Shown piece by piece: positions 7,017 to 24,452 of a DNA stretch of 64,000 nt; positions within the stretch are counted from its first letter, which is position 1; each line of letters opens with the position of its first letter. Made by a program: the position numbers and the translations under genes. Under the pieces are notes generated by a model. That model saw nothing but the letters and a program-made list of their open reading frames with translations, made no database searches and was not told the origin of the DNA. The stretch is taken from contig NZ_JACSDK010000013.1 in NCBI RefSeq assembly GCF_014925385.1, forward strand, positions 1 through 64,000, read 5' to 3'. Source of the DNA: Pelagibius marinus. GTDB lineage: Bacteria; Pseudomonadota; Alphaproteobacteria; Kiloniellales; Kiloniellaceae.

Positions 7017-7125
7017 GGTCTTTCCCCAGGAGGTTCCCGGCACAGCGGGTGTCGTAGGTCTTGGCGGCAGGCTGCGGCTGTGTTCTGCTTGCTGCAACGG
7101 CATAGCGTCGTTGAGGGCGAAATCG

Positions 7126-7140
7126 TTCTGTCTGACAGAA
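7126..7140. promoter_or_regulatory. Palindrome TTCTGTCTGACAGAA, likely IclR operator
   Basis: A perfect 7-base inverted repeat around a single central base, in the 139-base gap between the divergent CoA-transferase (start 7016) and IclR (start 7156) genes. It is only 15 bases before the iclR start, so binding would repress its own synthesis. IclR-family dimers bind short palindromes of this kind. Confidence 0.6.
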
Positions 7141-7155
7141 TATATGAGGGGCGGC

Positions 7156-8074: not shown

Positions 8075-8950
8075 GTGGGGTGTTATCTTCGCCCAGGTTA
8101 TCTTCGGCCCAGGGGGCTTGAAGACGCGGTCGCCGCCATGGCGGACGGCAGCTATACGGTCCTCGCCGGAGGCACCGATTTCTATCCTGCGCGTGCCGGC
8201 GGTCTCGGGGGCCGCCCCCCTGAGAGCAAAGTTCTCGACATTACCGCCCTGGAAGGGCTGCGCGGCATCGCCGAAGAGGGCGACTCCCTTCGCATCGGTG
8301 CGCTGACCACCTGGAGCGACCTGCTGCACGCGCCGCTGCCGCCCTATTTCGCGGCCTTGAAGCTGGCGGCGCGCGAAGTGGGCGGCGTGCAGATCCAGAA
8401 CGCCGGCACCCTCTGCGGCAACCTCTGCAACGCCTCGCCGGCCGCCGACGGCGTGCCGCCGCTGCTGGCCCTGGACGCGGAGGTGGAACTGGCCTCGCAA
8501 GCGGGCGCGCGGCGCCTGGCCCTCGACGACTTCATCCTCGGCAACCGCCAAACCGCCAAGCGTCCCGACGAACTGGTGACGGCGCTGCACATCCCGAAGC
8601 TATCCGCGCGGGCGCGCAGCACCTTCCTGAAGCTGGGCGCGCGCAAGTATCTGGTGATCTCCATCGTCATGGCGGCGCTGCTGATCGATCTCGACGACAA
8701 GGGCAACGTCAGCAAGGCCCGGGTCGCCGTCGGCTCCTGCGCCGCGCGTGCCCTGCGCCTGCCGGCGGTGGAGGCGGCCCTCGAGGGGCGGCCTTTCGAC
8801 GAGGACCTGCTGCCACGCATCGGCGATGAGCAGCTTGACCCGCTGACACCGATCGACGATATCCGCGGCACCGCCGACTATCGCCGCGAGGCCGCCGTGG
8901 CGCTGCTGCGCCGCGGGGTCGAGGCCCTGCTGTCGCAGGAGGCCGCGTGA
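8075..8950 (+). CDS. Molybdenum hydroxylase FAD-binding subunit
   Basis: A 291-residue subunit of the xanthine dehydrogenase/CO dehydrogenase FAD-binding (medium subunit) type. The FAD motifs are VLAGGTDFYP (about residue 30) and IQNAGTLCGNLCNASPAADG (about 107-126), and the C-terminal CO_deh_flav domain follows. It would pass electrons from the iron-sulfur domain to an external acceptor. There is no extra FeS insertion of the 4-hydroxybenzoyl-CoA reductase beta kind. The start is GTG at 8075, nine bases after GGGGAG. Its stop overlaps the next start (TGATG). It is the first gene of the cluster and probably part of a nicotinate dehydrogenase-like enzyme. Confidence 0.85.
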   Translation: MGCYLRPGYLRPRGLEDAVAAMADGSYTVLAGGTDFYPARAGGLGGRPPESKVLDITALEGLRGIAEEGDSLRIGALTTWSDLLHAPLPPYFAALKLAAREVGGVQIQNAGTLCGNLCNASPAADGVPPLLALDAEVELASQAGARRLALDDFILGNRQTAKRPDELVTALHIPKLSARARSTFLKLGARKYLVISIVMAALLIDLDDKGNVSKARVAVGSCAARALRLPAVEAALEGRPFDEDLLPRIGDEQLDPLTPIDDIRGTADYRREAAVALLRRGVEALLSQEAA

Positions 8951-10902
8951 TGGACGCCGCGCTGAAGCAGCCCGCCGCCGAAGGCGGGCAGGAAATCCGC
9001 TTCACCCTCAACGGCGAGGCGGTGACCCTGAGCGCCGATCCCCTGGAGCGGCTGAGCGACGGGCTGCGCTACGCGCTCGGCCTTACCGGGACCAAGGTGG
9101 GCTGCAACGCCGGCGACTGCGGCGCCTGCACGGTGCTGGTCGACGGCGAGCAGGTCTGCAGTTGCCTCATGGCCTGCGGCCAGGTCGAGGGGCGGCAGGT
9201 GATGACGGTCGAGGGTCTTGCCGGCGACGCGGAGGGACAGCGCCTGCAGCAGGCTTTTCTCGATCACGGCGCGGCCCAGTGCGGCATCTGCACGCCGGGC
9301 ATGCTGATGGCCGCGACCTCGCTGCTGAAGCGGGCCGCCGCTCCGACCAAGCAGGAGGTGCAGGACGCGCTGGGCGGCGTGCTGTGCCGCTGCACCGGCT
9401 ACCAGAAGATCGTCGAGGCGGTCTGCGCCGCGGCGGAAGCGACCCCGGCTGATGTCCCCTTGACCGATCCCGATGTCGGCTGCGCCGTCGGCGCGCGCTT
9501 CGCCAAGACCGACGGCCTGGCCAAGGTGACCGGCGCCGAGCTCTACGGCGCCGATACGGCGCCGCAAGGCGCGCTGTGGCTGCGCGTCGTCCGCGCGCCG
9601 CATGCCCGCGCCAGTTTCACCCTGGGCGACCTCGACGCGGTGGTGGCGAAGACGCCGGGGCTGGAGCGTATCCTCACCGCCGCTGACATCCCCGGCAGCA
9701 AGGCCTTCGGCGTCTATCCGCACATCAAGGACCAGCCGGTGCTGGCCCAAGGAAGGGTGCGCTACCGCGGCGAGGCGGTGCTGGCGCTGGTCGGCAGCCG
9801 CGCCGCCGTCTGGTCGCTCGCCGAAGAGGAGCTGCCGATCACCTGGCAGCCGGAGGACGCGGTCACCGACTTCTGCGCCGAGGGCCAGCCGCTGGTCCAG
9901 GAAGGCCGCGCCGACAATGTGCTGGCGCGCGGCTTCGTCAACAAGGGCGACGCCGAGGCGGCCCTGGCGGCCTCGGCGCTGACGTCGGAGATCAGCACCG
10001 CCACGCCCTTCATCGAGCACGCCTACATCGAGCCGGAAGCCGGCTATGCCGAGCGCAAGGGCGATGTGCTGGAGGTCTGGGTGACCACCCAGGCGCCCTA
10101 CATGGACCGCGACGAGACGGCGGCCATCCTGGGCCTCGACAAGGAAAAGGTGCGCATCATCCCCTCGGCCTGCGGCGGCGGCTTCGGCGGCAAGCTGGAC
10201 CTCTCGCTGCATCCCCTGGTGGGGCTGGCCGCCTGGCTGTCGGAGCGGCCGGTGCGCTGCGAATACACGCGGCCGGAATCCATGGCCTCCTCCACCAAGC
10301 GCCACGCTTCGCGGGTGACGGCGCGGGCCGGCTGCGATGCCGACGGTAAGCTGACGGCGCTGGTCTTCGACGGCGACTTCGACACCGGGGCCTATGCCTC
10401 CTGGGGGCCGACGGTGGCCGACCGGGTGCCGGTCCACTGCAGCGGCCCCTACAAGGTGCCCAACGTCCTGGCCCGTTCGGTCGGGCGCTTCACCAACGCG
10501 CCGCCGGCCGGCGCCTTCCGCGGCTTCGGCGTGCCGCAGTCCGCCCTGGCGCACGAGGCGCTGATGGACGACCTGGCCGAACAGCTCGGTCTCGACCCGC
10601 TGGAGTTCCGTTATCGAAACGCGATCCGCGTCGGCGACGCCACGGCCACCGGCCAGGTGCTGACCGCCTCGGCGGGGCTGGCCGACTGCCTGGAGGCCCT
10701 GCGACCCACCTGGAAGGAGTGGCGGGCCGCCGCCGAGGCTTTCAACGGCGCCGACCCCCCGCGGGGAGGGGGGGGCGCCCCCCCCGCGGGCCTCACCCGG
10801 GCCCCCGCCCCCGCCGGCGCCGCGGCGTCGGCGTCGGCTGCGTCTGGTACGGCTGCGGCAACACCTCCATGTCCAATCCCTCGACCATGTCGGTGGCGCT
10901 GA
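8950..10902 (+). CDS. Fused [2Fe-2S]-molybdopterin hydroxylase subunit, N-terminal part (frameshifted)
   Basis: Residues 1-160 are a two-cluster iron-sulfur subunit: plant-type cysteines at 52, 57, 60 and 72, and the second cluster at 111, 114, 146 and 148 (CGICTPGM and CRCTGYQ). After a short linker the xanthine-dehydrogenase-type large subunit begins (KVTGAELYGAD, RAPHARA, then CGGGFGGK and GAFRGFG). The family normally codes these as separate chains; here they are fused. Similarity holds to about 10756 (EAFNGAD), after which the frame runs into a proline/glycine-rich, nearly AT-free stretch and then out-of-frame sequence, ending at 10902. The rest of the subunit continues in another frame from about 10812. 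The most likely substrate is an N-heteroaromatic such as nicotinate. Confidence 0.75.
   Translation: MDAALKQPAAEGGQEIRFTLNGEAVTLSADPLERLSDGLRYALGLTGTKVGCNAGDCGACTVLVDGEQVCSCLMACGQVEGRQVMTVEGLAGDAEGQRLQQAFLDHGAAQCGICTPGMLMAATSLLKRAAAPTKQEVQDALGGVLCRCTGYQKIVEAVCAAAEATPADVPLTDPDVGCAVGARFAKTDGLAKVTGAELYGADTAPQGALWLRVVRAPHARASFTLGDLDAVVAKTPGLERILTAADIPGSKAFGVYPHIKDQPVLAQGRVRYRGEAVLALVGSRAAVWSLAEEELPITWQPEDAVTDFCAEGQPLVQEGRADNVLARGFVNKGDAEAALAASALTSEISTATPFIEHAYIEPEAGYAERKGDVLEVWVTTQAPYMDRDETAAILGLDKEKVRIIPSACGGGFGGKLDLSLHPLVGLAAWLSERPVRCEYTRPESMASSTKRHASRVTARAGCDADGKLTALVFDGDFDTGAYASWGPTVADRVPVHCSGPYKVPNVLARSVGRFTNAPPAGAFRGFGVPQSALAHEALMDDLAEQLGLDPLEFRYRNAIRVGDATATGQVLTASAGLADCLEALRPTWKEWRAAAEAFNGADPPRGGGGAPPAGLTRAPAPAGAAASASAASGTAAATPPCPIPRPCRWR
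10757..10811. other. GC-only-like insertion causing a frameshift
   Basis: About 55 bases composed almost entirely of C and G runs, including GGGGGGCGCCCCCC-like self-complementary stretches, sit exactly where the hydroxylase reading frame breaks. The coding frame before (8950) and after (11774) differ by one register. Neither side of the family alignment needs extra residues here, so the stretch is an insertion or an assembly artefact at a strong hairpin. Confidence 0.6.
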
Positions 10903-11774
10903 ACCGCGAGGGCAAGCTCACGCTCTACAACGGCGCCGTCGACATCGGCCAGGGCTCCAACACCATCATGGCGCAGATCGCCGCCGATGCGCTGGGCCTG
11001 CCGGTGCAGGAGATGCGCGTCGTCATGGGCGACACGGCGCTGACGGCGGATGCCGGCAAGACCTCGGCCTCGCGCCAGACCTTCATCTCCGGCAAGGCGG
11101 CGGAGCTGGCCGGGCGCGACCTGCGCGCCCAGATCCTGCGCCTCGCCAATGCCGGCGAGGACGCGCGCCTGGAACTGAAGGACGGAGAGCTGCACGTGCA
11201 CGACGGTGTCGAAGTGCGCAGCCTCGACCTGGCGGAACTGCCGGAGGATGCGCGCGGCGACGTGCTCTGCGGCAGCGGCACCTTCGACCCGCCGACCTCG
11301 CCGCTGGACGGGAACGGCCAGGGCGACCCCTACGCCACCTACGGCTTCGCCGCGCAGATCGCCGAGGTCGAGGTCGACCTGGACCTGGGGACGGTGAAGG
11401 TGCTGCGCATGGCCGCCGCCCACGACGTCGGCCGCGCGGTCAACCCGACCCTGGTGGAAGGCCAGATCCACGGCGGCATCGCCCAGGGCCTGGGCCTGGC
11501 GCTGATGGAGGAGTACCTGCCCGGGCGCACCGAGAACCTGCACGACTACCTGATCCCCACCTTCGGCGACATGCCGGAGATCACCAGCATTCTGGTGGAA
11601 GACCCGGAGCCGCTGGGCCCCTACGGCGCCAAGGGCGTGGGCGAGCATTCGCTGATCGCCACCGCGCCGGCGATCTTCGGCGGCGTCTACCAGGCTACCG
11701 GCCTGCGGCTGACAGGCACGCCAGCGACGCCGGACCGGGTGCGCGCGGCTCTGCGCGAAGCGGGCATCGTGTGA
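10812..11774 (+). CDS. Molybdopterin hydroxylase subunit, C-terminal part (after frameshift)
   Basis: This frame resumes the large subunit at RRRRGVGVGCVWYG and NTSMSNPSTM and carries it to its normal C-terminus. It includes YNGAVDIGQGSNT, the molybdopterin-binding KTSASRQTF region, and YGAKGVGEHS, whose glutamate is the conserved base of this enzyme family. No ribosome-binding site or family-consistent start is present, so it is the second half of the gene at 8950 rather than an independent gene; an internal ATG at 10869 could in principle be used. If the frameshift is real, the enzyme is inactive; if it is an assembly error, the full protein would be about 920 residues. Confidence 0.75.
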   Translation, partial: RRRRGVGVGCVWYGCGNTSMSNPSTMSVALNREGKLTLYNGAVDIGQGSNTIMAQIAADALGLPVQEMRVVMGDTALTADAGKTSASRQTFISGKAAELAGRDLRAQILRLANAGEDARLELKDGELHVHDGVEVRSLDLAELPEDARGDVLCGSGTFDPPTSPLDGNGQGDPYATYGFAAQIAEVEVDLDLGTVKVLRMAAAHDVGRAVNPTLVEGQIHGGIAQGLGLALMEEYLPGRTENLHDYLIPTFGDMPEITSILVEDPEPLGPYGAKGVGEHSLIATAPAIFGGVYQATGLRLTGTPATPDRVRAALREAGIV

Positions 11775-11784
11775 GGACCAAGAG

Positions 11785-13335
11785 ATGAGCGCGACGGAAG
11801 CCGAAAAGACTGAAGGCCGCGGCAAGAACGCCCACAACAAGAACGGGGACATCGTCGTCTGCGACGCCTGCCCGGTGCTCTGCCGTATCCGACCGGGCAA
11901 GACCGGGGCCTGCGATCGCTATGGCAATGTCGACAACGCCCTGGTGCGCATGGACCCCTTCCTGCTGGCGCGCCAGGCGGCCGAGCGCGAGGCGGAGATG
12001 GTGCCCTTCCTGGCCACCGAAGGGGCTGGGGCGGAATGGGATGGGAACCTGGTCCAGGGCTCGGAAGCCTTCGTCACCGGCATCGGCGCCGGCACCACCT
12101 ATCCCGACTACAAGCCCGCGCCCTTCATTGTGTCGTCCAAGGTGGAAGGCGTCGACATGGTGACCGTGGTGACCGAGGGCATCTTCAGCTACTGCGGCGT
12201 GAAGGTGAAGATCGACACCGACCGCCACCTTGGGCCCGAGCAGGCCGCCGTGCGCTGCCAGGGCGAGCAGGTCGGCCACGTCACCACCGCCGAGTACGGC
12301 TCGCAGATGCTGGCCCTCGGCGGCGTGCGGCACCTGACCGGCGGCAGCAAGAAGGAAGGCAACGTCACCTGCCAGATGATGCTCGACCTCTGCAACAAGC
12401 AGGCGGTGGACCTCACCATCGACGGCGGCGCCGAGCTGACCATCCAGGCGGGCAGGGCGCCGATCATCAACGGCGTCAAGGAAGAGCGCATGCGCGTCGG
12501 CTGCGGCTCGGCCACCATCGGCATCTTCGCCCAGCAGTGGGTCGGCCAGGTGGACGAGGTCATCGTGGTGGACGATCACATCACCGGCGTGCTGACCGAG
12601 CACCAGGCGGGCAAGTTCCTTGATATGAAGCCCAGCGGCATTCGCGTGCGCGGGCGCCGTTCGACGCCGGGCCGCTATTTCCAGGTGGCCGAGCCCGGTA
12701 CCGGCTGGGGCGGCACCAACATCAGCGACCCTCTGTCGATCATCGAAAAGATCGATCCCAAGACCGCCTGGCCGGGCCTGCGCCTGCTGATGGTCAGCAC
12801 CACCGGTGAGCACGCCGCCTGGTTCGAGCTGGACGAAGATCTGAAACCCCAGGAAGCCGAAATGCCGGAGGCCGTGCAGGTCGTGGTCGACCGCATCGGC
12901 GAGAACTGCGAACCGGCGCTGGCCTCCGTGCTGTTCATGGCCGGGGCGGGCGGCAGCCTGCGCGCCGGGGCGACGGAGAACCCGGTACGCCTGACCCGCT
13001 CGGTGAAGGATGCGCTGACCCGCGTCACCGCCGGTGGCGCCAAGGCCTACGTCTGGCCGGGCGGCGGCATCACCATCATGGTCGACGTCATGGACATGCC
13101 CGACAATGCCTTCGGCTACGTGCCGACGCCGGCCATCGTCGGGCCGATCGAGTTCACCATGCCGCACGAGGTTTATGCCGAGCTGGGTGGCCACATGAAG
13201 TCGGTGCAGTCCCTGGCCGACGTCATCAAGACCCGCGGCACCGGGGAGCGCATCCGCCTGACCGACCTGAAGGCGGAGAACCCCTGGCCGCTGTCGCCGC
13301 TAAACAAGCTTCCGGGCAAGAAGGCGGGGGTCTGA
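11785..13335 (+). CDS. 6-hydroxynicotinate reductase-like iron-sulfur protein
   Basis: A 516-residue protein that I recognise as the 6-hydroxynicotinate reductase family. In Eubacterium barkeri this enzyme reduces 6-hydroxynicotinate to 1,4,5,6-tetrahydro-6-oxonicotinate with ferredoxin and contains iron-sulfur clusters and a covalent flavin. An N-terminal cluster motif is clear: CDACPVLC (Cys26, 29, 33) with Cys43. More cysteines occur at 137, 158, 196, 203, 240 and 375. SLRAGAT at 391-397 resembles the ApbE flavinylation signature that ends in GAT, making Thr397 a candidate flavin site. Start ATG 11785, eleven bases after the hydroxylase stop; its stop abuts the UPF0280 start. Family assignment is strong; the substrate is inferred. 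Confidence 0.82.
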   Translation: MSATEAEKTEGRGKNAHNKNGDIVVCDACPVLCRIRPGKTGACDRYGNVDNALVRMDPFLLARQAAEREAEMVPFLATEGAGAEWDGNLVQGSEAFVTGIGAGTTYPDYKPAPFIVSSKVEGVDMVTVVTEGIFSYCGVKVKIDTDRHLGPEQAAVRCQGEQVGHVTTAEYGSQMLALGGVRHLTGGSKKEGNVTCQMMLDLCNKQAVDLTIDGGAELTIQAGRAPIINGVKEERMRVGCGSATIGIFAQQWVGQVDEVIVVDDHITGVLTEHQAGKFLDMKPSGIRVRGRRSTPGRYFQVAEPGTGWGGTNISDPLSIIEKIDPKTAWPGLRLLMVSTTGEHAAWFELDEDLKPQEAEMPEAVQVVVDRIGENCEPALASVLFMAGAGGSLRAGATENPVRLTRSVKDALTRVTAGGAKAYVWPGGGITIMVDVMDMPDNAFGYVPTPAIVGPIEFTMPHEVYAELGGHMKSVQSLADVIKTRGTGERIRLTDLKAENPWPLSPLNKLPGKKAGV

Positions 13336-14238
13336 ATGACGCGTCCCAGTCTCCTCCGCCACGACCTGCCGGACGGCCGCCTGCATCTGCAGGAAGGCCC
13401 CATCGACCTGCTGATCGAGGCCTTCGGCCCGCGCGCGGCGGTGCGGCGGGCCTACGACGCGGCGGCGGAGTGCTTCCAGGACGTCCTGCCGGACCTGGTT
13501 GCGGAGCTGACGGCGCTGCGCCGGCCGCTGCGCCAGGACACACCGCCGTTTTCCGGCCCGGTGGCGCGGCGCATGGCGGCGGTCTGCCGACCTCACCGCG
13601 CCGCGCTCGTCACCCCCATGGCCGCGGTCGCGGGGGCTGTGGCCGACCAGGTGCTGGCCGCCATGACCGGGGCGGCGGACCTCACCCGCGCCTATGTGAA
13701 TAACGGCGGCGACATCGCCCTGCAGCTGACGCCCGGCGAAAGCCTTGCCTGCGGCCTGATCGCGCAGGTCGCCGGTCCGCGCCTGGATGGCCCGCACCTG
13801 GACGGTAGGGCCGTCATCAGCGCGGAGCTGCCGGTCCGTGGCATCGCCACCTCGGGGCGCGCCACCAAAGGACAGGGCGGGCGCAGCTTCTCGCTGGGCA
13901 TCGCCGATGCGGTGACGGTCTTCGCGCGCACGGCCGCCGAGGCCGACGTCGCCGCGACGCTGATCGCCAACGCGGTCGACCTGCCCGGCCATGCGCTGGT
14001 GGTGCGCCGCCCGGCCGAGGAGATCGACCCCGAGAGCGATCTCGGCGCGCGCCCGGTCACCGTCGCCGTCGGCAGGCTGACCGAGGCGGAAATCGCGGCG
14101 GCGCTGCGGCGCGGGCAGGCGGCGGCCGCGGAGATGCTGGCCGCCGGCCTCGTCGAAGCGGCGGTTCTGTTTCTGCGGGGGCAGGCGGAGACCGTCGGGG
14201 CGTTGCCCCTGCTGTCCGGCCTGCCGAGCGCGGCTTAG
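13336..14238 (+). CDS. UPF0280 family protein (ApbE superfamily)
   Basis: A 300-residue protein of the UPF0280/COG2122 family, distantly related to the FAD:protein FMN transferase ApbE. Features shared with ApbE include YVNNGGDIAL (compare NVGGDI), IATSGRATKGQGGRSFSLGIADAVTVFA (the region that in ApbE holds TSG and the following DP/ADAVTVVA strand) and a final ADVAATLIANAVD helix. The function of the family is not established. It starts directly at the stop of the 6-hydroxynicotinate reductase-like gene (TGA ATG). Because that reductase is a covalent flavoprotein in E. barkeri, I infer that this protein may attach or handle its flavin. Confidence 0.78.
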   Translation: MTRPSLLRHDLPDGRLHLQEGPIDLLIEAFGPRAAVRRAYDAAAECFQDVLPDLVAELTALRRPLRQDTPPFSGPVARRMAAVCRPHRAALVTPMAAVAGAVADQVLAAMTGAADLTRAYVNNGGDIALQLTPGESLACGLIAQVAGPRLDGPHLDGRAVISAELPVRGIATSGRATKGQGGRSFSLGIADAVTVFARTAAEADVAATLIANAVDLPGHALVVRRPAEEIDPESDLGARPVTVAVGRLTEAEIAAALRRGQAAAAEMLAAGLVEAAVLFLRGQAETVGALPLLSGLPSAA

Positions 14239-14253
14239 AGGGGGAAACACGTT

Positions 14254-14835
14254 TTGGCCGTCGAAGTTCGCAAAGTCACGACCAACGTCGAGGAAATCCA
14301 CCACGAGGGCGGGCCCGTCGCGGCCACGCCCCTGCTGGTCGGCTCCGCCGCCGTGGTCATCGCCAATCCCTTCTCCGGGCGCTACGTCGAGGAGCTGCAG
14401 CCCTACATGGAGGAGCTGAAGCCCCTGGGCCTCGAAATAGCCGAACGGCTGGTCAAGGCGATGGGAGGTGACAAGAGCCGCGTTTCCGGTTTCGGCAAGG
14501 CCTCCATCGTCGGCGGCGCCGGCGAGCTGGAGCACGGCGCGCTGTGGCACGTGCCCGGCGGCTACGCCATGCGCGAGCTTCTGGGCGACGCCAGGGCCAT
14601 CGTGCCCTCGGCCAAGAAGGTCGGCCCGGTCGGCGCGCGCATCGACGTGCCGATCACCCATATCAACGCCTCTTACGTGCGCGGGCACTTCAACGCCGTC
14701 GAAGTCGGTGTGCCCGGCGCGCCGGAGGCCGACGAGCTGGTGTTCATCCTGGCGATGACCAGCGGCGCGCGCATCCACGACCGCATGGGCGGCCTGCGCG
14801 TGGAAGACATCAAGGGGGAGGATGGTTTGCGATGA
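14254..14835 (+). CDS. DUF1185 (amino acid synthesis family) protein, copy 1
   Basis: A 193-residue DUF1185/PF06684 protein, a family of unproven role. The start is TTG at 14254, preceded by AGAGGGGGAA, and gives the family N-terminus AVEVRKVTTNVEEI. Conserved blocks are VVIANPFSGRY, FGKASIVGGAGELEHGA, IVPSAKKVG, IDVPITH and the terminal VEDIKGEDGLR. It is clearly homologous to the next gene, with matching blocks along the whole length, so the two may form a heteromer. Compared with copy 2 it has diverged in the N-terminal third and near the middle. Its place between the reductase pair and the electron-transfer genes suggests a part in ring reduction or processing of the reduced ring. Confidence 0.85.
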   Translation: MAVEVRKVTTNVEEIHHEGGPVAATPLLVGSAAVVIANPFSGRYVEELQPYMEELKPLGLEIAERLVKAMGGDKSRVSGFGKASIVGGAGELEHGALWHVPGGYAMRELLGDARAIVPSAKKVGPVGARIDVPITHINASYVRGHFNAVEVGVPGAPEADELVFILAMTSGARIHDRMGGLRVEDIKGEDGLR

Positions 14836-14845
14836 GGGTCCCAAA

Positions 14846-16801
<1,956 letters not shown>

Positions 16802-16831
16802 GTCCCGGCCACGAAGGAAAGGAGAGAGAGC

Positions 16832-17890
16832 ATGACGTTCGTCCGCAATGCCTGGTACGTCGCCGGCTGGTCGAAGAATTTCGGCCGGGAGCTCACGCCT
16901 CTCACCATCATGGACGAGGACATCGTCATCTACCGCACCGAGGCGGGCGCGGCCGTGGCGTTGACCGACGAGTGTCCGCACAAGCGCCTGCCGCTTTCCA
17001 AGGGACGGCTGAAGGGCGACGCGGTGGAGTGCGGCTACCACGGCATGACCTTCGGCTGCGACGGCAAATGCGTGCGCATTCCCGGCCAGAGCAACCTGCC
17101 GTCCTCGGCCTGGGTGCGCGCCTATCCGCTGCATGAGCGCCACGGCATCGTCTGGATCTGGATGGGCGAGGCGGAGAAAGCCGACCCGGAGCTGGTCTTC
17201 GACATGCCGGAGTTCACCGACCCGAACTGGGCGCCGCACCACGGCGACGCCCTGGAGCTGGAATGCAACTACCTGCCGGTGGCCGACAACCTCTGCGACC
17301 CGGCGCACGTCAGCTTCGTTCACCCGACAACGCTGGGCAACCCGGCCTGCGAGGACGTGCCCATCGACTGCGCGCGCCAGGGCCAAACGGTGATCACCTG
17401 GCGCTGGATCCGCGACGCGCCGCCGGTCGGCTTCTTCAAGGCCTTCGGAAATTTCGCCGGCAACGTCGATCGCTGGCACTACTACTATCTGCACGCGCCC
17501 AACGTGGCGGTCATCGACTTCGGCAGCGCCGCCACCGAGGAGGCCATCGGCGAGGAGGAGCGCGACAAGGGCGTGCGGCTCTTCGCGCTGCATTTCCTGA
17601 CGCCGGTCTCCGAGACGCGCACGGTCGACCACTGGATGCACCTGCGCAACATCGCCTTGGATGACGAAGGGATGGGCGAGCGCATGAACGAGCAGTTCCG
17701 CATCGCCTTCGCCGAGGACAAGGCGATCCTGGAGACGATCCAGGCACGCGAGGCCAAGGCCCCGGCGCGCCGGCCTGTGCGCATCGCCATCGACCGCGGG
17801 CCCAACCACCTGCGCCGCATCATCGCCGAGATGGCTGCGCAGGAGACCACCCCGGCGGAAGATGCGGCCGCGATGCAAGCGGTGTCGTGA
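16832..17890 (+). CDS. Rieske non-heme iron oxygenase, vanillate demethylase (VanA)-like
   Basis: A 352-residue oxygenase alpha subunit. The Rieske [2Fe-2S] ligands are Cys48 and His50 (ECPHKRLPL) and Cys67 and His70 (ECGYHG). The mononuclear iron site is DNLCDPAHVSFVH, with Asp156 bridging and His159 and His164 as ligands. The N-terminus (FVRNAWYVAGW) and length match the VanA O- and N-demethylase group rather than ring-hydroxylating dioxygenases, and no beta subunit is present. It may demethylate an N- or O-methylated substrate feeding the pathway (for example an N-methylpyridinium), or oxidise an intermediate. A GAAAGGAGAGAG ribosome-binding site precedes the ATG. Confidence 0.88.
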   Translation: MTFVRNAWYVAGWSKNFGRELTPLTIMDEDIVIYRTEAGAAVALTDECPHKRLPLSKGRLKGDAVECGYHGMTFGCDGKCVRIPGQSNLPSSAWVRAYPLHERHGIVWIWMGEAEKADPELVFDMPEFTDPNWAPHHGDALELECNYLPVADNLCDPAHVSFVHPTTLGNPACEDVPIDCARQGQTVITWRWIRDAPPVGFFKAFGNFAGNVDRWHYYYLHAPNVAVIDFGSAATEEAIGEEERDKGVRLFALHFLTPVSETRTVDHWMHLRNIALDDEGMGERMNEQFRIAFAEDKAILETIQAREAKAPARRPVRIAIDRGPNHLRRIIAEMAAQETTPAEDAAAMQAVS

Positions 17891-17916
17891 CGTTATGACG
17901 CAACGATTGCACAAAT

Positions 17917-18004
17917 CGTCACCCCCGGGCTTGATCCGAGGGTCCATGGCGCGACACCCAGTGCGGTTGGACCATGGATGCTCGGCTCAAGCCCGAACAT
18001 GATA
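17917..18004. repeat. Palindromic intergenic repeat (REP-like)
   Basis: Between the Rieske gene and the binding-protein gene, CCCGGGCTTGATCCGAGGGTCCATGG is answered by CCATGG, then ATGCTCGGCTCAAGCCCG, forming a long imperfect inverted repeat flanked by GTCA/TGA-type ends. From memory, this sort of CGGGCTTGA...TCAAGCCCG element is scattered through many alphaproteobacterial genomes. It may also end transcription of the upstream operon part. Confidence 0.7.
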
Positions 18005-18074
18005 TTGAGAGAAGCCGGGAAAGCATGAGAAGAACCGGCGACAGATCAGCGAATAGACCAACAGGAGGCAAAAC

Positions 18075-19283
18075 ATGGGGATCAGAAAGGTTTTGGGGGC
18101 GGCAGTACTCGCCGCTTCCGTCATTGCGCCGGGCGTTGCCGGCGCCCAGGAGACCATCCGCATCGGCGACATCAACAGCTACAAGAACCTGCCGGCATTC
18201 ACTATTCCCTATAAGCAGGGAGCCGAGCTGGCGATTGAGCAGATCAACGCCAAGGGCGGCGTACTAGGCAAGCCGCTGGAGATCGTCTCCCGCGACGATC
18301 AGGGCAAGCCCGGCGAGGCGGTGCGCTACGCCGAGGAGCTCTTCACCAAGGAAAACGTCGTGCTGATCTCCGGCTCGCTGTTCTCCCACGTCGGTCTGGC
18401 GCTGGGCTCCTACGCCGGCCAGAAGAAGCGCCTCTACCTCGCGGCGGAGCCGCTGGCCGACTCCCTGGTCTGGGCCCAGGGCAACCGCTACACCTTCCGC
18501 CTGCGCCCCAGCACCTACATGCAGGCTGCCATGCTGGCTGAGGCTGCGGCCAAGACGGGTGCCAAGCGCTGGGCGACCATTGCCCCGAACTATGCCTACG
18601 GCAAGGACGCCGTGGCCGCCTTCAAGGAAGTGCTGAAGGCCAAGGTGCCGGACGTCGAGTTCGTCGGCGAGCAGTGGCCGGCGCTCTTCAAGATCGATGC
18701 CGCCGCCGAGGCGCAGGCGCTGGAGTCCGTGAAGCCGGACGGCATCTACAACGTCACCTTCGGCAGCGACCTCGCGAAGTTCGTGCGTGAAGGCACGCTG
18801 CGCGAGCTGTTCAAGGAGCGCACGGTGCTGGGGCTTCTGACCGGCGAGCCGGAATACATCGATCCGCTGGGCCCCGAAGCGCCGGAAGGCTGGATCGTCA
18901 CCGGCTATCCCTGGTACGCCATCGATACCCCGGCGCACAACGCCTTCGTCGAGGCCTACCAGGCCAAGTTCGACGACTACCCGCGCGTCGGCTCCCTGGT
19001 CGGCTACAACGCCATGCTGTCCATCGCGGCGGCCCTCGAAAAGGCGGGCGGCACCGACACCGAGGCGCTGGTCGAGGCCTTCGAGGGCCTGGAACTTGAT
19101 ACGCCGGCCGGCGCCATCACCTATCGCGCGCTGGACCACCAGTCCACCATGGGGGCCTGGGTCGGCACCACCACGGTGAAGGACGGCAAGGGCGTCATGG
19201 TCGACTGGACCTACGAGAAGGGCGGTGACTACCTGCCGTCCGACGAAGTGGTGAAGACGCTGCGTCCGGCCAACGGCGGCTGA
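18075..19283 (+). CDS. ABC transporter substrate-binding protein (branched-chain/aromatic type)
   Basis: A 402-residue periplasmic binding protein of the Peripla_BP_6 (LivK/amide-urea) family. A signal peptide covers about residues 1-24 (ends GVAGA). Typical segments are RIGDINSYKNLP, GAELAIEQINAKGGVLGKPLEIVSRDDQGKPGEAV, the RLRPSTYMQ loop and ATIAPNYAYGKDA. It has a strong AGGAGG six bases before the ATG. Together with the fused permease and two ATPases downstream it makes a complete importer, probably for the heteroaromatic substrate of the cluster. Confidence 0.9.
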   Translation: MGIRKVLGAAVLAASVIAPGVAGAQETIRIGDINSYKNLPAFTIPYKQGAELAIEQINAKGGVLGKPLEIVSRDDQGKPGEAVRYAEELFTKENVVLISGSLFSHVGLALGSYAGQKKRLYLAAEPLADSLVWAQGNRYTFRLRPSTYMQAAMLAEAAAKTGAKRWATIAPNYAYGKDAVAAFKEVLKAKVPDVEFVGEQWPALFKIDAAAEAQALESVKPDGIYNVTFGSDLAKFVREGTLRELFKERTVLGLLTGEPEYIDPLGPEAPEGWIVTGYPWYAIDTPAHNAFVEAYQAKFDDYPRVGSLVGYNAMLSIAAALEKAGGTDTEALVEAFEGLELDTPAGAITYRALDHQSTMGAWVGTTTVKDGKGVMVDWTYEKGGDYLPSDEVVKTLRPANGG

Positions 19284-19300
19284 GGCCACCCCGCCGCCTT

Positions 19301-19329
19301 GGGGCGGGCGCCAGGACGGCGCCTGCCCC
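19301..19329 (+). terminator. Stem-loop after the binding-protein gene
   Basis: GGGGCGGGCGCC (19301-19312) can pair with GGCGCCTGCCCC (19318-19329) around a five-base loop, with one G-T wobble. It lies 17 bases after the binding-protein stop and before the permease gene and lacks a U tract. Such hairpins commonly stabilise or partially terminate mRNA so that the binding protein is made in excess over the membrane components. Confidence 0.55.
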
Positions 19330-19382
19330 ATCGGCCGCCCGCGTCTTTTGATGGATTTACCGCAGATGACAGAGACCGCCTG

Positions 19383-21278
19383 ATGGGTGTCTACCTGGCG
19401 CAGTTCCTTTCCGGGCTGGCGAGCGCCTCGGCGCTGTTCCTCGCCGCCTCGGGCCTGTCGATCATCTTCGGAGTCACCCGCGTGGTGAACTTCGCCCACG
19501 GCTCCTTCTATATGCTGGGCGCCTATTTCGGTTATTCCCTGGTGCGCAACCTGGGTGGCGGGGCGCTGGGCTTCTGGGTTGCCCTGCTGATTGCCTCGAT
19601 CGCGGTCGGGCTGGTCGGGCTTTTGGTCGAGGTGATCATTCTCCGGCGGCTCTACAAGGCACCGGAGCTGTTCCAGCTCATCGCGACCTTCGGCGTCATC
19701 CTTGTCATCCAAGACGTCGTCTTCTGGTACTGGGGGGCGGAGAACCTTCTGGGTCCGCGCGCGCCGGGCCTCAGCGGCATCGTGCGCATCTTCGACGTGC
19801 CCATGCCGGTCTACGACCTGGCGCTGATCGCCATCGGACCGCTTGTCCTGCTGGGCCTCTGGCTGCTGTTCAACCGGACCCGCTGGGGCGTGCTGGTGCG
19901 CGCCGCCACCGAGGACCGCGAGATGGTCGGCGCCCTGGGCGTCAACCAGTCGCTGCTCTTTACCGGCGTCTTCGTGCTGGGCTCGGCGCTGGCCGGTCTG
20001 GGCGGCGCCATCCAGCTGCCCAAGGGCGATGCCAACCTGCTGATGGACTTCGGCATCCTGGCGGAAGTCTTCGTGGTCACCGTGGTCGGCGGCATGGGCT
20101 CCATCTTCGGCGCCTTCCTGGCCGCCGTGCTGATTTCCGAGCTCAATACCTTCGGCATCCTGGTCTGGCCGAACGGCACCCTGGTGCTGATGTTCATCCT
20201 CATGGCGGTGATCCTCATCGTGCGTCCCACCGGCCTGCTGGGCCGGCCCGAGACCATCGGCCAGAAGACCGAGACCGGACCCGTCGAGGTGGTGCTGCCC
20301 GCGGGCCCGCACTACAAGATCTTCGTCGCGGTGGTCATCGCCCTGCTGGCGCTGCTGCCGCTGCTGGTCGACGACTTCATCCTGGTGCTGGTCACCGACA
20401 TCCTGGTGCTGGCGCTCTTCGCCACTTCCCTGCATTTCCTCATGTCGACCGGCGGGCTGGTCTCCTTCGGTCACGCCGCCTTCTACGGCGGCGGCGCCTA
20501 CGCGGCGGCCCTGCTGGTCACCTACGCCGCCACGCCTTTTGAGCTGGCTTTGCTCCTGGCGCCCTTCGGTGCGGGGCTGCTGGCCCTCGTGATCGGCTGG
20601 TTCTGCGTGCGCCTCTCGGGCGTCTACTTCGCCATGCTGACGCTCGCCTTTGCCCAGGTCGCCTGGTCGGTGGTCTTCCAGTGGTCTGATGTCACCAACG
20701 GCGACGACGGCCTGCTCGGCATCTGGCCGGCGGCCTGGGCCTCGGGCACCGCAACCTACTACTACGTCGCCTTCGTGGTCGCGGCTGCGGGAATCTTCCT
20801 GATCCGCCGGGTGGTCTTCGCGCCCTTCGGCTACGGCCTGCGCGCGACCCGCGATTCCTCGCTGCGCGCGGCGGCCATCGGCATCGACATCAAGCGCCAG
20901 CAGCTCGCCGCCTTCGTCTTCGCCGGCGTCATGGCAGGCCTGGCCGGCGGCCTCTTTGCCTTTTCCAAGGGCTCCGTGTTTCCGGACGAAATGTCGATCC
21001 CGCGTTCCTTCGACGCCCTGCTCATGGTGCTGCTGGGCGGCATCGAGTCGCTCTCCGGCCCGGTGGTCGGCGCCGCCGCCTTCACCTGGCTGCACGACGA
21101 GCTGATCACCTTCGAATACTGGCGCCTGCTGCTGGGCGTGGTCATCGTCGCCCTGGTGCTGCTCTTCCCGCAGGGCCTCGGCGGCGCGGCGCGGCACCAC
21201 GTCGGGCGCTACCTGAAGCTGGAAGCCTCGCCCGGCGACCTGCGCTCGGCCACACCGAAAAGGGAGCAGCGCGCATGA
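19383..21278 (+). CDS. Fused branched-chain-type ABC permease (LivH-LivM fusion)
   Basis: A 631-residue membrane protein that joins both permeases of a branched-chain amino acid-type importer. The LivH-like half (about residues 1-300) includes LSIIFGVTRVVNFAHGSFYMLGAY and the EAA-like loop VLVRAATEDREMVGALGVN. The LivM-like half (about 320-630) includes GLVSFGHAAFYGGGAYAAAL and YGLRATRDSSLRAAAIGID. About 16-18 hydrophobic segments are visible. I chose ATG 19383 because it starts directly at the first membrane segment. Its stop overlaps the ATPase start (ATGA). Confidence 0.87.
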   Translation: MGVYLAQFLSGLASASALFLAASGLSIIFGVTRVVNFAHGSFYMLGAYFGYSLVRNLGGGALGFWVALLIASIAVGLVGLLVEVIILRRLYKAPELFQLIATFGVILVIQDVVFWYWGAENLLGPRAPGLSGIVRIFDVPMPVYDLALIAIGPLVLLGLWLLFNRTRWGVLVRAATEDREMVGALGVNQSLLFTGVFVLGSALAGLGGAIQLPKGDANLLMDFGILAEVFVVTVVGGMGSIFGAFLAAVLISELNTFGILVWPNGTLVLMFILMAVILIVRPTGLLGRPETIGQKTETGPVEVVLPAGPHYKIFVAVVIALLALLPLLVDDFILVLVTDILVLALFATSLHFLMSTGGLVSFGHAAFYGGGAYAAALLVTYAATPFELALLLAPFGAGLLALVIGWFCVRLSGVYFAMLTLAFAQVAWSVVFQWSDVTNGDDGLLGIWPAAWASGTATYYYVAFVVAAAGIFLIRRVVFAPFGYGLRATRDSSLRAAAIGIDIKRQQLAAFVFAGVMAGLAGGLFAFSKGSVFPDEMSIPRSFDALLMVLLGGIESLSGPVVGAAAFTWLHDELITFEYWRLLLGVVIVALVLLFPQGLGGAARHHVGRYLKLEASPGDLRSATPKREQRA

Positions 21279-22078
21279 GCTTCGCCGAAGCGAGAACCGC
21301 CGGGTCGCCGGCGCTGTCGGTCAGCGGCCTGAGCAAGGCCTTCGGCGGCGTGCAAGCGGTGAAGGACGTGGACTTCCAGGTCGCCGAGGGCGAGCTGCTG
21401 GCCCTCATCGGCCCCAACGGGGCGGGTAAGAGCACCTGCTTCAACATGCTGAACGGCCAGATCCGGCCCGACCGGGGCAGCGTGAAGCTGTCCGGGGAGG
21501 AGCTGGTCGGCCGCTCGCCGGCGCAGATCTGGCGGCGCGGCGTCGGGCGCACCTTCCAGATCACCGCCACCTTCCCCTCCATGACCGTGGCCGAGAACGT
21601 CGCCATGGTGCTCATGAGCCAGGCCCGCGAGCTTTTCTCCTTCACCAGGAGCGCGGTAAACCGTCACCGCGCCAAGGCGCTGCAGCTGCTCGACATGGTG
21701 GGCATGGCGGGGCAGGCGGACCGGCCCTGCGGCGTGCTGGCCTACGGCGACCTGAAGCGGGTCGAACTGGCGGTGGCCCTGGGCAACGAGCCGCGGGTGC
21801 TGCTGATGGACGAGCCCACGGCGGGCATGGCGCCGCGCGAGCGCGTCGAGCTCATGGGTCTCGCCGCGCGCCTGGCGCACGAGCTGGACGTCGCCGTGCT
21901 ATTCACCGAGCACGACATGGACATCGTCTTCAGCCATGCCGACCGCATCATCGTGCTGAGCCGCGGCGAGCTGATCGCCGAGGGCGACGCCGAACAGATC
22001 CGGAGCGACCCCCTGGTGCTGAAGACCTACCTCGGCGAAGGCCAGGTCTACGGCCAAGACAAGAAGCCCAAGGACTGA
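21275..22078 (+). CDS. ABC transporter ATP-binding protein, LivG-like
   Basis: A 267-residue nucleotide-binding subunit. Walker A is IGPNGAGKSTCFN, Walker B is VLLMDEPTAGMAP, and the switch His is in FTEHDMD. The signature region reads LAYGDLKRVELAVAL, the variant usual for LivG-type ATPases. It overlaps the permease gene by four bases and is followed after five bases by the LivF-like partner. Confidence 0.92.
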   Translation: MSFAEARTAGSPALSVSGLSKAFGGVQAVKDVDFQVAEGELLALIGPNGAGKSTCFNMLNGQIRPDRGSVKLSGEELVGRSPAQIWRRGVGRTFQITATFPSMTVAENVAMVLMSQARELFSFTRSAVNRHRAKALQLLDMVGMAGQADRPCGVLAYGDLKRVELAVALGNEPRVLLMDEPTAGMAPRERVELMGLAARLAHELDVAVLFTEHDMDIVFSHADRIIVLSRGELIAEGDAEQIRSDPLVLKTYLGEGQVYGQDKKPKD

Positions 22079-22083
22079 GGGCC

Positions 22084-22785
22084 ATGCTCGAGATCAGGGG
22101 CATTCACAGCTACTACGGCCAGGCGCACATCCTGACCGACGTTTCGCTCACCCTCTCCAAGGGGGAGATCGTGGTGCTGCTGGGGCGCAACGGCGCCGGC
22201 AAGTCGACCACCATCAAGTCGATCATGGGCATGGTGCGCGTGACGGAAGGCTCCATCGCCTACGACGGTGAGGAGGTCCTGGGCGAGCCGGCGAACCGCA
22301 TCGCCCGGCGCGGCCTCGGCTACGTGCCGGAGGAGCGGCGTATCTTCACCCGCCTGAGCGTGCAGGAGAATCTGGACTGCGGCCGGCAGCCGGCCCGGGA
22401 GGGCACGCGAAACTGGACGGCGGATGACATGTTCGACCTCTTTCCCAACCTGGCCGAGGCGCGCCACCGCCCCGGCGGCACGCTCAGCGGCGGCGAGCAG
22501 CAGATGCTGACCATCGCCCGCACCCTGATGGGCAACCCGGGCTGCATCCTGCTCGACGAGCCCTCGGAGGGCCTCGCCCCGGTGGTGGTGGAGCAGATCA
22601 TCAAGGTGGTGAAGGAGATCAAGGCACAGGGCATTCCGGTGCTGCTGTCGGAGCAGAACCTCTACTTCGCCGGCCTGGTCAGCGACCGCGCCTACGTCAT
22701 CGAGACCGGGCACATCCGCTACGAAGGCTCCATGCGAGAGCTGGAAGAGAACGACGAGGTCCGCCAGCAGTATCTGGCGGTGTAA
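22084..22785 (+). CDS. ABC transporter ATP-binding protein, LivF-like
   Basis: A 233-residue second ATPase of the importer. Walker A is LLGRNGAGKSTTIK, the signature is LSGGEQQMLTIARTL, and Walker B is GCILLDEPSEGLAP. LGYVPEERRIFTRLSVQENL is a hallmark of LivF proteins. It completes the importer formed with the genes at 18075, 19383 and 21275, and is followed 12 bases later by the enamidase gene. Confidence 0.92.
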   Translation: MLEIRGIHSYYGQAHILTDVSLTLSKGEIVVLLGRNGAGKSTTIKSIMGMVRVTEGSIAYDGEEVLGEPANRIARRGLGYVPEERRIFTRLSVQENLDCGRQPAREGTRNWTADDMFDLFPNLAEARHRPGGTLSGGEQQMLTIARTLMGNPGCILLDEPSEGLAPVVVEQIIKVVKEIKAQGIPVLLSEQNLYFAGLVSDRAYVIETGHIRYEGSMRELEENDEVRQQYLAV

Positions 22786-22797
22786 GGGAGACCTGCC

Positions 22798-23976
22798 ATG
22801 AGCGAGAAGCTTGTCATCAAGAATATTGGCCTCATGCTGTCCGGCGACCTGGAGCAGCCGATCCTGGACGCCGACACCATCGTCGCCGTGGATGGGCGCA
22901 TCGCCGAGGTCGGCAAGGCCGTCGAGGTCGACACGGCCGGCGCCGACAAGACCGTCGACGCCAAGGGCACGACCGTGGCGCCGGGGCTGATCGACAGCCA
23001 CGTGCACCCGGTCTTCGGCGACTGGACGCCGCGCCAGAGCCAGATCAACTGGATCGACTCCTTCCTGAACGGCGGCGTCACGACCATGATCTCTGCCGGC
23101 GAGGTCCACCTGCCGGGCCGGCCCAAGGACATCGTCGGCCTGAAGGCCCTGGCGATCACCGCCCAGCGCGCTTTCTCCAACATGCGCTTCGGCGGGGTGA
23201 AGGTGCACGCCGGCGCGCCGGTCATCGAGAAGGGCATGGAGGAGGAGGACTTCAAGCAGCTTGCCGAGGCCGGCGTGAAGCTGCTGGGCGAGGTCGGCCT
23301 GGGCGGCGTGAAGCAGGGCGAGGAGGCCAAGAAGATGGTCGCCTGGGCGCGGAAGTACGGCATCCAGAGCACCATCCACACCGGCGGCCCCTCGATCCCA
23401 GGTTCCGGCCTCATCGACGCCGACGTGGTGCTGGAAGCAGATGCCGATGTCATCGGCCACATCAACGGCGGCCACACCGCCCTGCCGCTGACCCAGATCC
23501 GCTGCCTCTGCGAGAGCTGCAGCCGCGCGGTGGAGATTGTCCACAACGGCAACGAGCTGGCGGCGCTCTACGCCATGCGCACGGCCATGGAGCTGGGCCA
23601 GCCGGAGCGCATCATCCTCGGCACCGACTCGCCGGCGGGCTCCGGCGTGCAGCCGCTGGGCATCCTGCGCGTCATCTCGCTGCTGTCCGCCATCGGCGAG
23701 GTGCCGGCGGAGACCGTGTTCTGCTTCGCCACCGGCAACACCGCGCGGATGCGCGAGCTGGACTGCGGCCTCATCGAGGTCGGCCGGGCGGCGGACTTCG
23801 TCATCATGGACAAGGCCCAGCACACCGCCGGCAAGACCCTGCTGGACTCGGTGCGCCTGGGCGACCTGCCGGGCATCTCCATGGTCATCATCGACGGGGT
23901 GGTGCGATGCGGGCGCTCGCGCAACACGCCGCCGGCCGAAACCCTGGCCGAAGTCGTTGGGGCGGAGGTCGCGTGA
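22798..23976 (+). CDS. Enamidase-like amidohydrolase (6-oxotetrahydronicotinate hydrolase)
   Basis: A 392-residue amidohydrolase-superfamily protein. It matches the E. barkeri enamidase strikingly from memory, for example IKNIGLMLSGDL, NGGVTTMISAG, LPGRPKDIVG, GLKALAIT and the terminal SRNTPPAE. The expected metal ligands are present: His68 and His70 (DSHVHP), Glu165 (LGEVGLG), His194 (TIHTGG), His221 (IGHINGG) and Asp277 (LGTDSPAG). Enamidase opens the ring of 1,4,5,6-tetrahydro-6-oxonicotinate to give ammonia and 2-formylglutarate. Its presence 9 kb from a 6-hydroxynicotinate reductase-like gene on the same strand is the strongest pointer to the substrate of the cluster. Confidence 0.85.
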   Translation: MSEKLVIKNIGLMLSGDLEQPILDADTIVAVDGRIAEVGKAVEVDTAGADKTVDAKGTTVAPGLIDSHVHPVFGDWTPRQSQINWIDSFLNGGVTTMISAGEVHLPGRPKDIVGLKALAITAQRAFSNMRFGGVKVHAGAPVIEKGMEEEDFKQLAEAGVKLLGEVGLGGVKQGEEAKKMVAWARKYGIQSTIHTGGPSIPGSGLIDADVVLEADADVIGHINGGHTALPLTQIRCLCESCSRAVEIVHNGNELAALYAMRTAMELGQPERIILGTDSPAGSGVQPLGILRVISLLSAIGEVPAETVFCFATGNTARMRELDCGLIEVGRAADFVIMDKAQHTAGKTLLDSVRLGDLPGISMVIIDGVVRCGRSRNTPPAETLAEVVGAEVA

Positions 23977-24452
23977 GCTCCGCGCCCACATCCAAGCCGC
24001 CGCCCGAGGCGGTGACCACCGAGCCGCCCGGCGGCTACCGGCTGGAGCGGCAGATCGGTTTCCTGCTGCGCCGCGCCCATCAGTACGCCAGCGAGGTCTT
24101 CCAGTCGAAGATCGGCGCGCGCAACCTGACGCCGCAGCAGTTCTCCGTGCTCGTCACCCTGCTGGAACGGCGCGAGATCGCCCAGACCAAGCTGGGCGAC
24201 CTGGTGGCCATGGACCCGGCCACGGTGCTGGGCGTGGTGCAGCGTCTCGCCCAGCGCGGCCTGGTCGCCGTGCGCACCGACCCCGCCGACGGCCGCCGCC
24301 GCCTGGTGCAGCTGACCCACGACGGCCACGAACTGGCCCGCGATCTGGTCGAAATAGGTCCGGCTATTTCCCGCGAGACCTTGGCGGGCCTCACCGACAA
24401 TGAGCAGCGCGACCTGCTGCGCCTGCTGGATCGCCTGGGGCGGAAAGGATAG
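23973..24452 (+). CDS. MarR family regulator
   Basis: A 159-residue winged-helix repressor. The MarR core covers about residues 25-150: LTPQQFSVLVTLLERREIAQTKLGDLVAMDPATVLGVVQRLAQRGLV, then the wing DPADGRRRLVQLT. The start is GTG 23973, overlapping the enamidase stop (GTGA) and following GGCGGAGG. MarR proteins control nicotinate degradation in Bordetella (BpsR/NicR, with 6-hydroxynicotinate as ligand), so by analogy this last gene of the cluster may sense the substrate or its hydroxylated form. Confidence 0.88.
   Translation: MSSAPTSKPPPEAVTTEPPGGYRLERQIGFLLRRAHQYASEVFQSKIGARNLTPQQFSVLVTLLERREIAQTKLGDLVAMDPATVLGVVQRLAQRGLVAVRTDPADGRRRLVQLTHDGHELARDLVEIGPAISRETLAGLTDNEQRDLLRLLDRLGRKG

Follow-up and report, generated by a model that had tools for sequence, protein, structure and literature searches.

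The window, by which we mean the whole 64,000-nucleotide stretch of Pelagibius marinus DNA, carries at 8075-24452 a single-strand (+) operon that includes a homologue of 6-hydroxynicotinate reductase (HNR) followed directly by a gene of the UPF0280 family. The new part of this work is the strict pairing of UPF0280 with HNR. Our overall reading, to which we assign a probability of about 0.72, is that the operon serves to import nicotinate, or a derivative bearing methyl or other substituents, and to degrade it reductively, with UPF0280 maturing HNR, one of two DUF1185 proteins (DUF1185b) assisting after the enamidase (ENA), and a Rieske monooxygenase playing an accessory part. Gene identities, linkages, and the predicted UPF0280 fold are shown by the analysis; the reactions, the substrate, and what UPF0280, DUF1185, and the Rieske protein do are inferred from them.

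HNR was detected in 68 of 385 genomes of the window's class (Alphaproteobacteria) and in five of the seven congeners searched. The UPF0280 protein of the window scored 365.5 bits against a curated NCBIfam cut-off of 290, and the family was matched in 74 of the 385 genomes: 65 matches exceeded the cut-off, three were fragments on split contigs, and six were weak (E 4.6e-7 or worse) and were excluded from the pairing count. The 68 genomes with a strong or fragmentary UPF0280 are exactly the 68 that carry HNR. In a draw of 234 genomes from the phylum (Pseudomonadota), which overlaps the class set, both genes were likewise found in the same 18 genomes. Gene context was counted at 105 loci, numbered here with the prefix L, after removal of two duplicates from 107. 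UPF0280 lies downstream of HNR on the same strand in 98 of them, and in the other seven a contig ends no more than 300 bases from HNR. Across related loci the HNR-UPF0280 order was constant, the rest of the operon far less so. The open-access literature searched yielded no account of UPF0280 serving HNR, and an earlier note on this DNA, which had called the roles of the UPF0280, DUF1185, and Rieske genes undescribed, holds within the literature searched, where a single stimulating role was found for a DUF1185 protein, TgnF (PMC7913881, in the part available). The pairing provides a second client for a family without a settled role, and makes the question of that role testable.

The window's HNR matched no Pfam or NCBIfam model at 1e-3 and had no convincing PDB match by sequence. 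Eight cysteines are invariant in all 37 aligned HNR rows. A weak GCV_T_C match was observed in 29 of 30 HNR members (best E 4.2e-5), at about 12196-12306 in the window. The HNR of Eubacterium barkeri is ferredoxin-dependent, is active on its own when purified, and reportedly contains a covalent flavin. Plasmid-borne homologues with 61-69% identity are mostly annotated as 6-hydroxynicotinate reductase; such homologues turned up on 26 of 72,556 plasmid records (Sulfitobacter accounts for 12), and the trait can therefore reside on non-chromosomal replicons. With HNR in 68 of 385 genomes, this ring reduction, originally discovered in an anaerobe, is widespread in the window's class. In the available portion of one earlier study, the reductive route is named for E. 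barkeri and Azorhizobium alone and inferred for SG-6C and some relatives, and the HNR of SG-6C is put at 42% identity to that of E. barkeri (PMC3511419).

Structure prediction relates UPF0280 to flavin transferases. Its AlphaFold2 model (predicted local distance difference test score, pLDDT, 91.5) gave 2o34 as top Foldseek match, followed by the flavin transferases FmnB, ApbE, and Ftp. By sequence, too, 2o34, which comes from Desulfovibrio, is detected with the UPF0280 profile. The eight FmnB/ApbE/Ftp chains among the best ten matches had probabilities of 0.99-1.00 and E values of 5e-5 to 9e-4. Profile comparison with 30 ApbE rows aligned the TSG and D..T motifs of the two families (E 5e-5 to 8e-5, reckoned for one comparison). 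The ApbE active site is a Ser-His-Asp set, consisting in the Vibrio cholerae enzyme of Ser241, Asp285, and the general base His257 (PMC12052999, available in part). By profile alignment and a manual match of spacing, Ser241 and Asp285 correspond to UPF0280 Ser173 and Asp204, which are kept in 35 of 36 and 36 of 36 rows, respectively. We propose that UPF0280 is a dedicated maturation factor of HNR that, judging from its predicted fold, would most likely install the covalent flavin as a relative of ApbE. More tentatively, and with the odds somewhat against it, UPF0280, which we take to be the same family as COG2122, could form an additional class of transferases, for flavin or a related cofactor, that dispense with the ApbE histidine and act on ferredoxin-dependent reductases, namely HNR and the DUF39 system of anaerobes. 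If true, this would account both for the covalent flavin of HNR and for the hitherto puzzling requirement of methionine synthesis for COG2122.

In the proposed pathway, the molybdenum hydroxylase would convert nicotinate to 6-hydroxynicotinate, HNR with reduced ferredoxin would reduce this to 1,4,5,6-tetrahydro-6-oxonicotinate, and the enamidase would open the lactam to formylglutarate and ammonia. Carbon would probably leave by way of glutarate or glutaryl-CoA, for which Azorhizobium offers a precedent and the adjoining CoA-transferase gene a candidate. Several lines of evidence lead us to assign the operon to this route. ENA is homologous over its full length to the E. barkeri enamidase 2vun, and the metal-ligand residues are kept in the alignment. 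The molybdenum subunit, compared with the PDB through the open frame of L004, matched chains A, B, and D of E. barkeri nicotinate dehydrogenase (3hrd) with 267.5, 217.4, and 122.7 bits, summing to about 608, against 385 bits for an aldehyde oxidoreductase, the highest-scoring single chain. In L116, a locus in an 8.0-Mb genome of the same class, HNR, UPF0280, DUF1185b, importer, MarR, and ENA genes (ENA 75% identical) occur close to genes for a [2Fe-2S] protein and for a molybdenum subunit bearing cytochrome c domains, the make-up of the NicAB nicotinate dehydrogenase. Further lines are the CoA-transferase next to the operon and a published series of similar clusters. According to the available portion of that report, Azorhizobium and Bradyrhizobiaceae have a conserved cluster that comprises the reductase, enzymes for the first three steps, an ABC importer, and two proteins without an assigned function; the HNR cluster is common to Azorhizobium caulinodans, Bradyrhizobium, Rhodopseudomonas HaA2, and SG-6C; SG-6C is able to break down both nicotinate and 6-hydroxynicotinate; and in Azorhizobium the conversion of tetrahydro-6-oxonicotinate passes through glutarate (PMC3511419). 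Reductive degradation of a nicotinate-type ring, as put forward in the earlier note, is thus supported by the enamidase, the molybdenum subunit, and L116. Its aerobic occurrence is not new, such clusters having been described before; the route is known in aerobes, and the window operon is a variant.

The first step carries a complication overlooked in the earlier note. In the window two frames share the molybdenum subunit gene, which is one open frame in those relatives whose contigs show all of it; a long single frame was also seen in L178, L179, L181, and L182 from the same genus. Around the break, at 10694-10817, the window has about 53 bases more than L003, in GC-rich sequence that includes homopolymers of eight G and eight C. 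The frameshift reflects either a misassembly or a genuine lesion, and in the latter case this genome may have lost the first step of the route.

The ring-opening enzyme varies among HNR loci, and one DUF1185 paralogue varies with it. Orthologues of ENA (at least 71% identity) occur in 31 of the 385 class genomes, 30 of which carry HNR; 15 weaker matches (38-42% identity) were set aside. Among the 105 loci, ENA (at least 300 bits) is visible in 19 and a hydantoinase A or B gene (Hyu, at least 500 bits) in 32; none shows both, and in 54 neither is in view. Representatives of the Hyu pair found their best NCBIfam matches, below cut-off, in caprolactamase alpha and beta. In the 67 HNR genomes besides the window's, ENA was present in 0 of 21 with the Hyu pair at the locus and in 29 of 46 without it. 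This exclusion depends on threshold: L087, from an ENA genome, has HyuA and HyuB matches of 345 and 229 bits, and counting it would make one breach. The swap between enamidase and a caprolactamase-like enzyme suggests two chemistries for opening the same kind of reduced lactam. Both DUF1185 copies scored far above the Pfam cut-off of 27 bits (221.6 for copy a and 244.3 for copy b). DUF1185b was found in 19 of 19 ENA loci and in one of 32 Hyu loci; by genome, the HNR locus included it in 23 of 29 with ENA and in one of 38 others, and three of the six exceptions were stretches shorter than 10 kb. From this co-occurrence we tie DUF1185b to the enamidase. It may help the following step, acting on the aldehyde acid, and the DUF1185 protein TgnF is cited as stimulating semialdehyde oxidation in the available part of PMC7913881.

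On the HNR tree these traits changed rather few times: we counted seven changes for ENA, six for DUF1185b, and 12 for Hyu. This was a second tree, built without L142 (a short reductase piece), and locus traits were scored in 60 of its 67 rows, loci under 10,500 bases being excluded; no counts were drawn from a first tree containing three long rows (L037, L090, and L108) that we took for wrong-frame cuts. Phylogenetically independent contrasts, with only five pairs on supported branches, too few for significance, gave no significant result. ENA and DUF1185b changed the same way in a mean of 2.6 contrasts and the other way in none (median p 0.25); ENA and Hyu changed the same way in none and the other way in a mean of 4.0 (median p 0.125). 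For ENA with DUF1185a the means were 1.5 and 0.1 (median p 1), and for ENA with the Rieske gene 2.3 and 0.1 (median p 0.5).

Several observations weigh against the reading given at the outset. The two genes, HNR and UPF0280, may have been transmitted together, and the 68 genomes therefore do not amount to 68 independent events. Within the best ten Foldseek matches, TM-scores to ApbE-type chains were modest (0.32-0.47, at 12-14% identity), and the profile comparison with ApbE reached a probability of only 39-61%. No histidine column is conserved among the 36 UPF0280 rows where ApbE has His257. The strict ApbE target motif, D-x-x-[S/T]-G-A-[S/T], was found in none of the 37 HNR rows, and the idea that HNR is flavinylated at a motif of this form was rejected; a looser motif, R-[AST]-G-[AVI]-T, is present in all 37 and proves little. 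COG2122 is needed, together with DUF39, for homocysteine synthesis in a role described as unknown, and its homology to ApbE perhaps does not extend to the flavin site (PMC5764234, available in part). The predicted HNR model is only fair (pLDDT 74), with nothing at E 0.001 or better in a fold search of the PDB. On the pathway side, the FAD subunit appears by sequence no closer to nicotinate dehydrogenase (3hrd_C, 102.7 bits, E 3e-28) than to CO dehydrogenase (CutM, 103.4 bits, E 1.8e-28), and one genome, G082, has an ENA orthologue without HNR.

The main rival to flavin attachment is a sulfur or Fe-S role, in which UPF0280 would supply persulfide to HNR or help build its Fe-S clusters, along the lines put forward for COG2122 with DUF39 and SepCysS. 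The eight invariant HNR cysteines and the missing ApbE histidine would fit such a factor, and so would findings in Desulfovibrio vulgaris, where mutants lacking COG2122 or DUF39 resemble each other and a role involving persulfide was put forward (PMC5764234, in the part available). Against it, the nearest folds after 2o34 are flavin transferases that use FAD, and the established COG2122 partner, HcyBio/DUF39, turned up in none of 299 phylum genomes in a search that was positive in three control genomes, two of them methanogens. The covalent flavin reported for E. barkeri HNR also requires an attachment route, and we regard a sulfur or Fe-S factor as unlikely, if worth taking seriously. A stable reductase subunit, that is, an FAD- or nucleotide-binding partner instead of a maturase, would equally explain why the two genes share one genome set and a constant order; we consider it improbable given that E. 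barkeri HNR is active by itself after purification. The substrate raises a separate question. HNR-UPF0280 clusters occur with differing ring openers and with or without a molybdenum hydroxylase, so the family may serve several substrates, and the Rieske module hints at a decorated one. ENA and HNR in the window could accordingly be specialized paralogues that degrade another N-heterocycle, such as picolinate, isonicotinate, or a pyrimidine. The conservation of ENA with 2vun, the L116 orthologue near a cytochrome-c-tailed molybdenum hydroxylase, and the published nicotinate clusters (PMC3511419, available in part) make this quite improbable, and nicotinate or a derivative remains the substrate that we infer. 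Six loci illustrate the variation: L020, L022, L082, L085, L087, and L103 have an HNR-UPF0280-DUF1185 cluster with KorAB adjoining on the opposite strand. A molybdenum hydroxylase of the window type is missing upstream of their HNR genes; in four of these loci the opposite strand encodes weak homologues of the molybdenum subunit (62-177 bits).

The earlier note further supposed an NADPH-ferredoxin supply. On this view the ferredoxin-NADP reductase (FNR) and ferredoxin of the operon feed HNR, with the Rieske gene as a mere neighbor. Several findings speak for this: HNR is ferredoxin-dependent; genes for KorAB, a 2-oxoacid:acceptor oxidoreductase, lie at 12 of the 105 HNR loci (two changes on the tree, six of 60 rows), which fits a ferredoxin-dependent HNR; and on one plasmid a different type of ferredoxin-NADP reductase is encoded divergently beside HNR, in 19.5 kb that include no annotated Rieske gene. 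A reductase labelled FprA beside KorAB gave generic family matches only. In addition, of 13 loci with a Rieske match (at least 300 bits) just two (L003 and L115) hold a window-type ferredoxin, so the Rieske enzyme often does without one. On the other side, among 117 loci scanned the window-type FNR was confined to L003, L178, and L182, and the ferredoxin to these plus L115 and L186 (L003 and L182 being one locus), in each case next to a Rieske gene; the link is one-way, most Rieske loci lacking both. Dicamba O-demethylase, the nearest solved relative of the Rieske protein, uses a ferredoxin of this kind, and the Rieske and VanA_C domains of the window protein are those of O- and N-demethylases. 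As stated, the claim of the earlier note is unsupported, the window-type pair being seen only beside a Rieske gene and other loci having 2-oxoacid:acceptor oxidoreductase genes; electron supply to HNR by FNR and ferredoxin keeps some weight as a possibility, though not a probable one. We favor an accessory oxygenase module, in which FNR, ferredoxin, and Rieske protein would perhaps act as a demethylase admitting a decorated substrate to the pathway.

Every gene named in the earlier note is present on the plus strand of the operon, in tightly spaced frames of which several overlap (8947/8950, 14822/14835, 16487/16490, and 21275/21278), as that note had described from the letters. The features identified from the list of open reading frames (ORFs) and the Pfam and NCBIfam scans are collected in the table; start codons are those of the mechanical ORF list, and the true starts of the MarR, IclR, and permease genes probably lie further in.

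Table. Genes of the operon and its upstream neighbors in the window, with the evidence for each assignment.
Feature	Position	Strand	Evidence
FAD subunit, molybdenum hydroxylase	8075..8950	+	Pfam FAD_binding_5, CO_deh_flav_C
FeS + molybdopterin subunit, 5' part	8947..10902	+	Pfam Fer2, Fer2_2, Ald_Xan_dh_C, MoCoBD_1
FeS + molybdopterin subunit, 3' part, other frame (homology from ~10812)	10719..11774	+	Pfam MoCoBD_2
6-Hydroxynicotinate reductase homologue (HNR)	11785..13335	+	62-86% identity to 29 relatives
UPF0280/COG2122, ApbE-like predicted fold, proposed HNR maturation factor	13336..14238	+	NCBIfam PRK04334.1-2
DUF1185 paralogue a	14254..14835	+	Pfam AA_synth, E 6e-66
DUF1185 paralogue b (enamidase-accompanying type)	14822..15430	+	Pfam AA_synth, E 7e-73
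Thioredoxin-reductase-like FNR	15459..16490	+	Pfam Pyr_redox_2
[2Fe-2S] ferredoxin	16487..16801	+	Pfam Fer2
Rieske monooxygenase, dicamba O-demethylase-like	16832..17890	+	Pfam Rieske + VanA_C; nearest PDB 3gb4, E 1e-40
ABC importer binding protein	18075..19283	+	Pfam Peripla_BP_6
Fused double permease of importer	19299..21278	+	Pfam BPD_transp_2, two stretches
Importer ATPase 1	21275..22078	+	Pfam ABC_tran
Importer ATPase 2	22084..22785	+	Pfam ABC_tran
Enamidase (ENA)	22798..23976	+	PDB 2vun, E 1.9e-110, residues 4-386; Pfam Amidohydro_1
MarR regulator	23907..24452	+	Pfam MarR
IclR regulator directly upstream of operon, true start probably inside ORF	6853..7848	+	Pfam HTH_IclR; same neighbors in L004, L005, L178
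Family III CoA-transferase, possible glutarate-activating step	5817..7259	-	Best NCBIfam match succinate--glutarate CoA-transferase, E 1.7e-84, 284 bits, below cut-off 750
Citryl-CoA-lyase-like protein beside CoA-transferase	4981..6108	-	NCBIfam PRK06224.1-1, 459 bits vs cut-off 261

The CoA-transferase and citryl-CoA-lyase-like genes (4981-7259, minus strand) are divergent from the IclR gene and adjoin the operon also in L004, L005, and L178; the pair could handle a dicarboxylic product. Elsewhere the window encodes a PrsT-like TPR protein of the XrtA/PEP-CTERM system (243-2666) and a choline-dehydrogenase-like member of the GMC family (44128-45774).

The nicotinate fermentation genes of E. 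barkeri are said to form a cluster of ndhFSLM, hnr, and ena, and the window operon likewise combines what may be a nicotinate-dehydrogenase-like hydroxylase with HNR and enamidase homologues. It differs in its proteobacterial host, in the fusion of the FeS domain to the molybdenum subunit, and in the addition of UPF0280, the DUF1185 pair, the Rieske, FNR, and ferredoxin genes, and the ABC importer, and no additional enzyme of the pathway was recognized by Pfam among the operon genes scanned. Compared with the Azorhizobium-type clusters, the window has Rieske, FNR, and ferredoxin genes that go unmentioned in the available part of their description, which also leaves the two unknown proteins unnamed, so that they cannot be equated with UPF0280 and DUF1185 (PMC3511419). 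DUF1185 is shared with TgnF, HcdD, BB2672, and SPO0826, the last of which also adjoins genes for a branched-chain-type ABC importer; these proteins belong to other pathways, an effect of HcdD was sought and none seen, and no direct activity is known from the available parts of the two sources (PMC7913881, PMC2954203). Caprolactamase CapAB, of the hydantoinase/oxoprolinase family, is the best below-cut-off match for representatives of the alternative ring opener at 32 of the 105 loci and does not occur in the window operon. UPF0280 resembles the flavin transferases ApbE and FmnB in predicted fold and in the TSG and D..T motifs, and differs from them in the conserved histidine that it lacks and in the strict target motif absent from HNR. 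With the COG2122-DUF39-NIL/ferredoxin homocysteine system, known to us from part of PMC5764234, it shares the top fold match 2o34 and, if the equivalence assumed above is right, the family itself; the difference is that DUF39 went undetected in the 299 phylum genomes searched and that HNR is the gene that tracks UPF0280 here.

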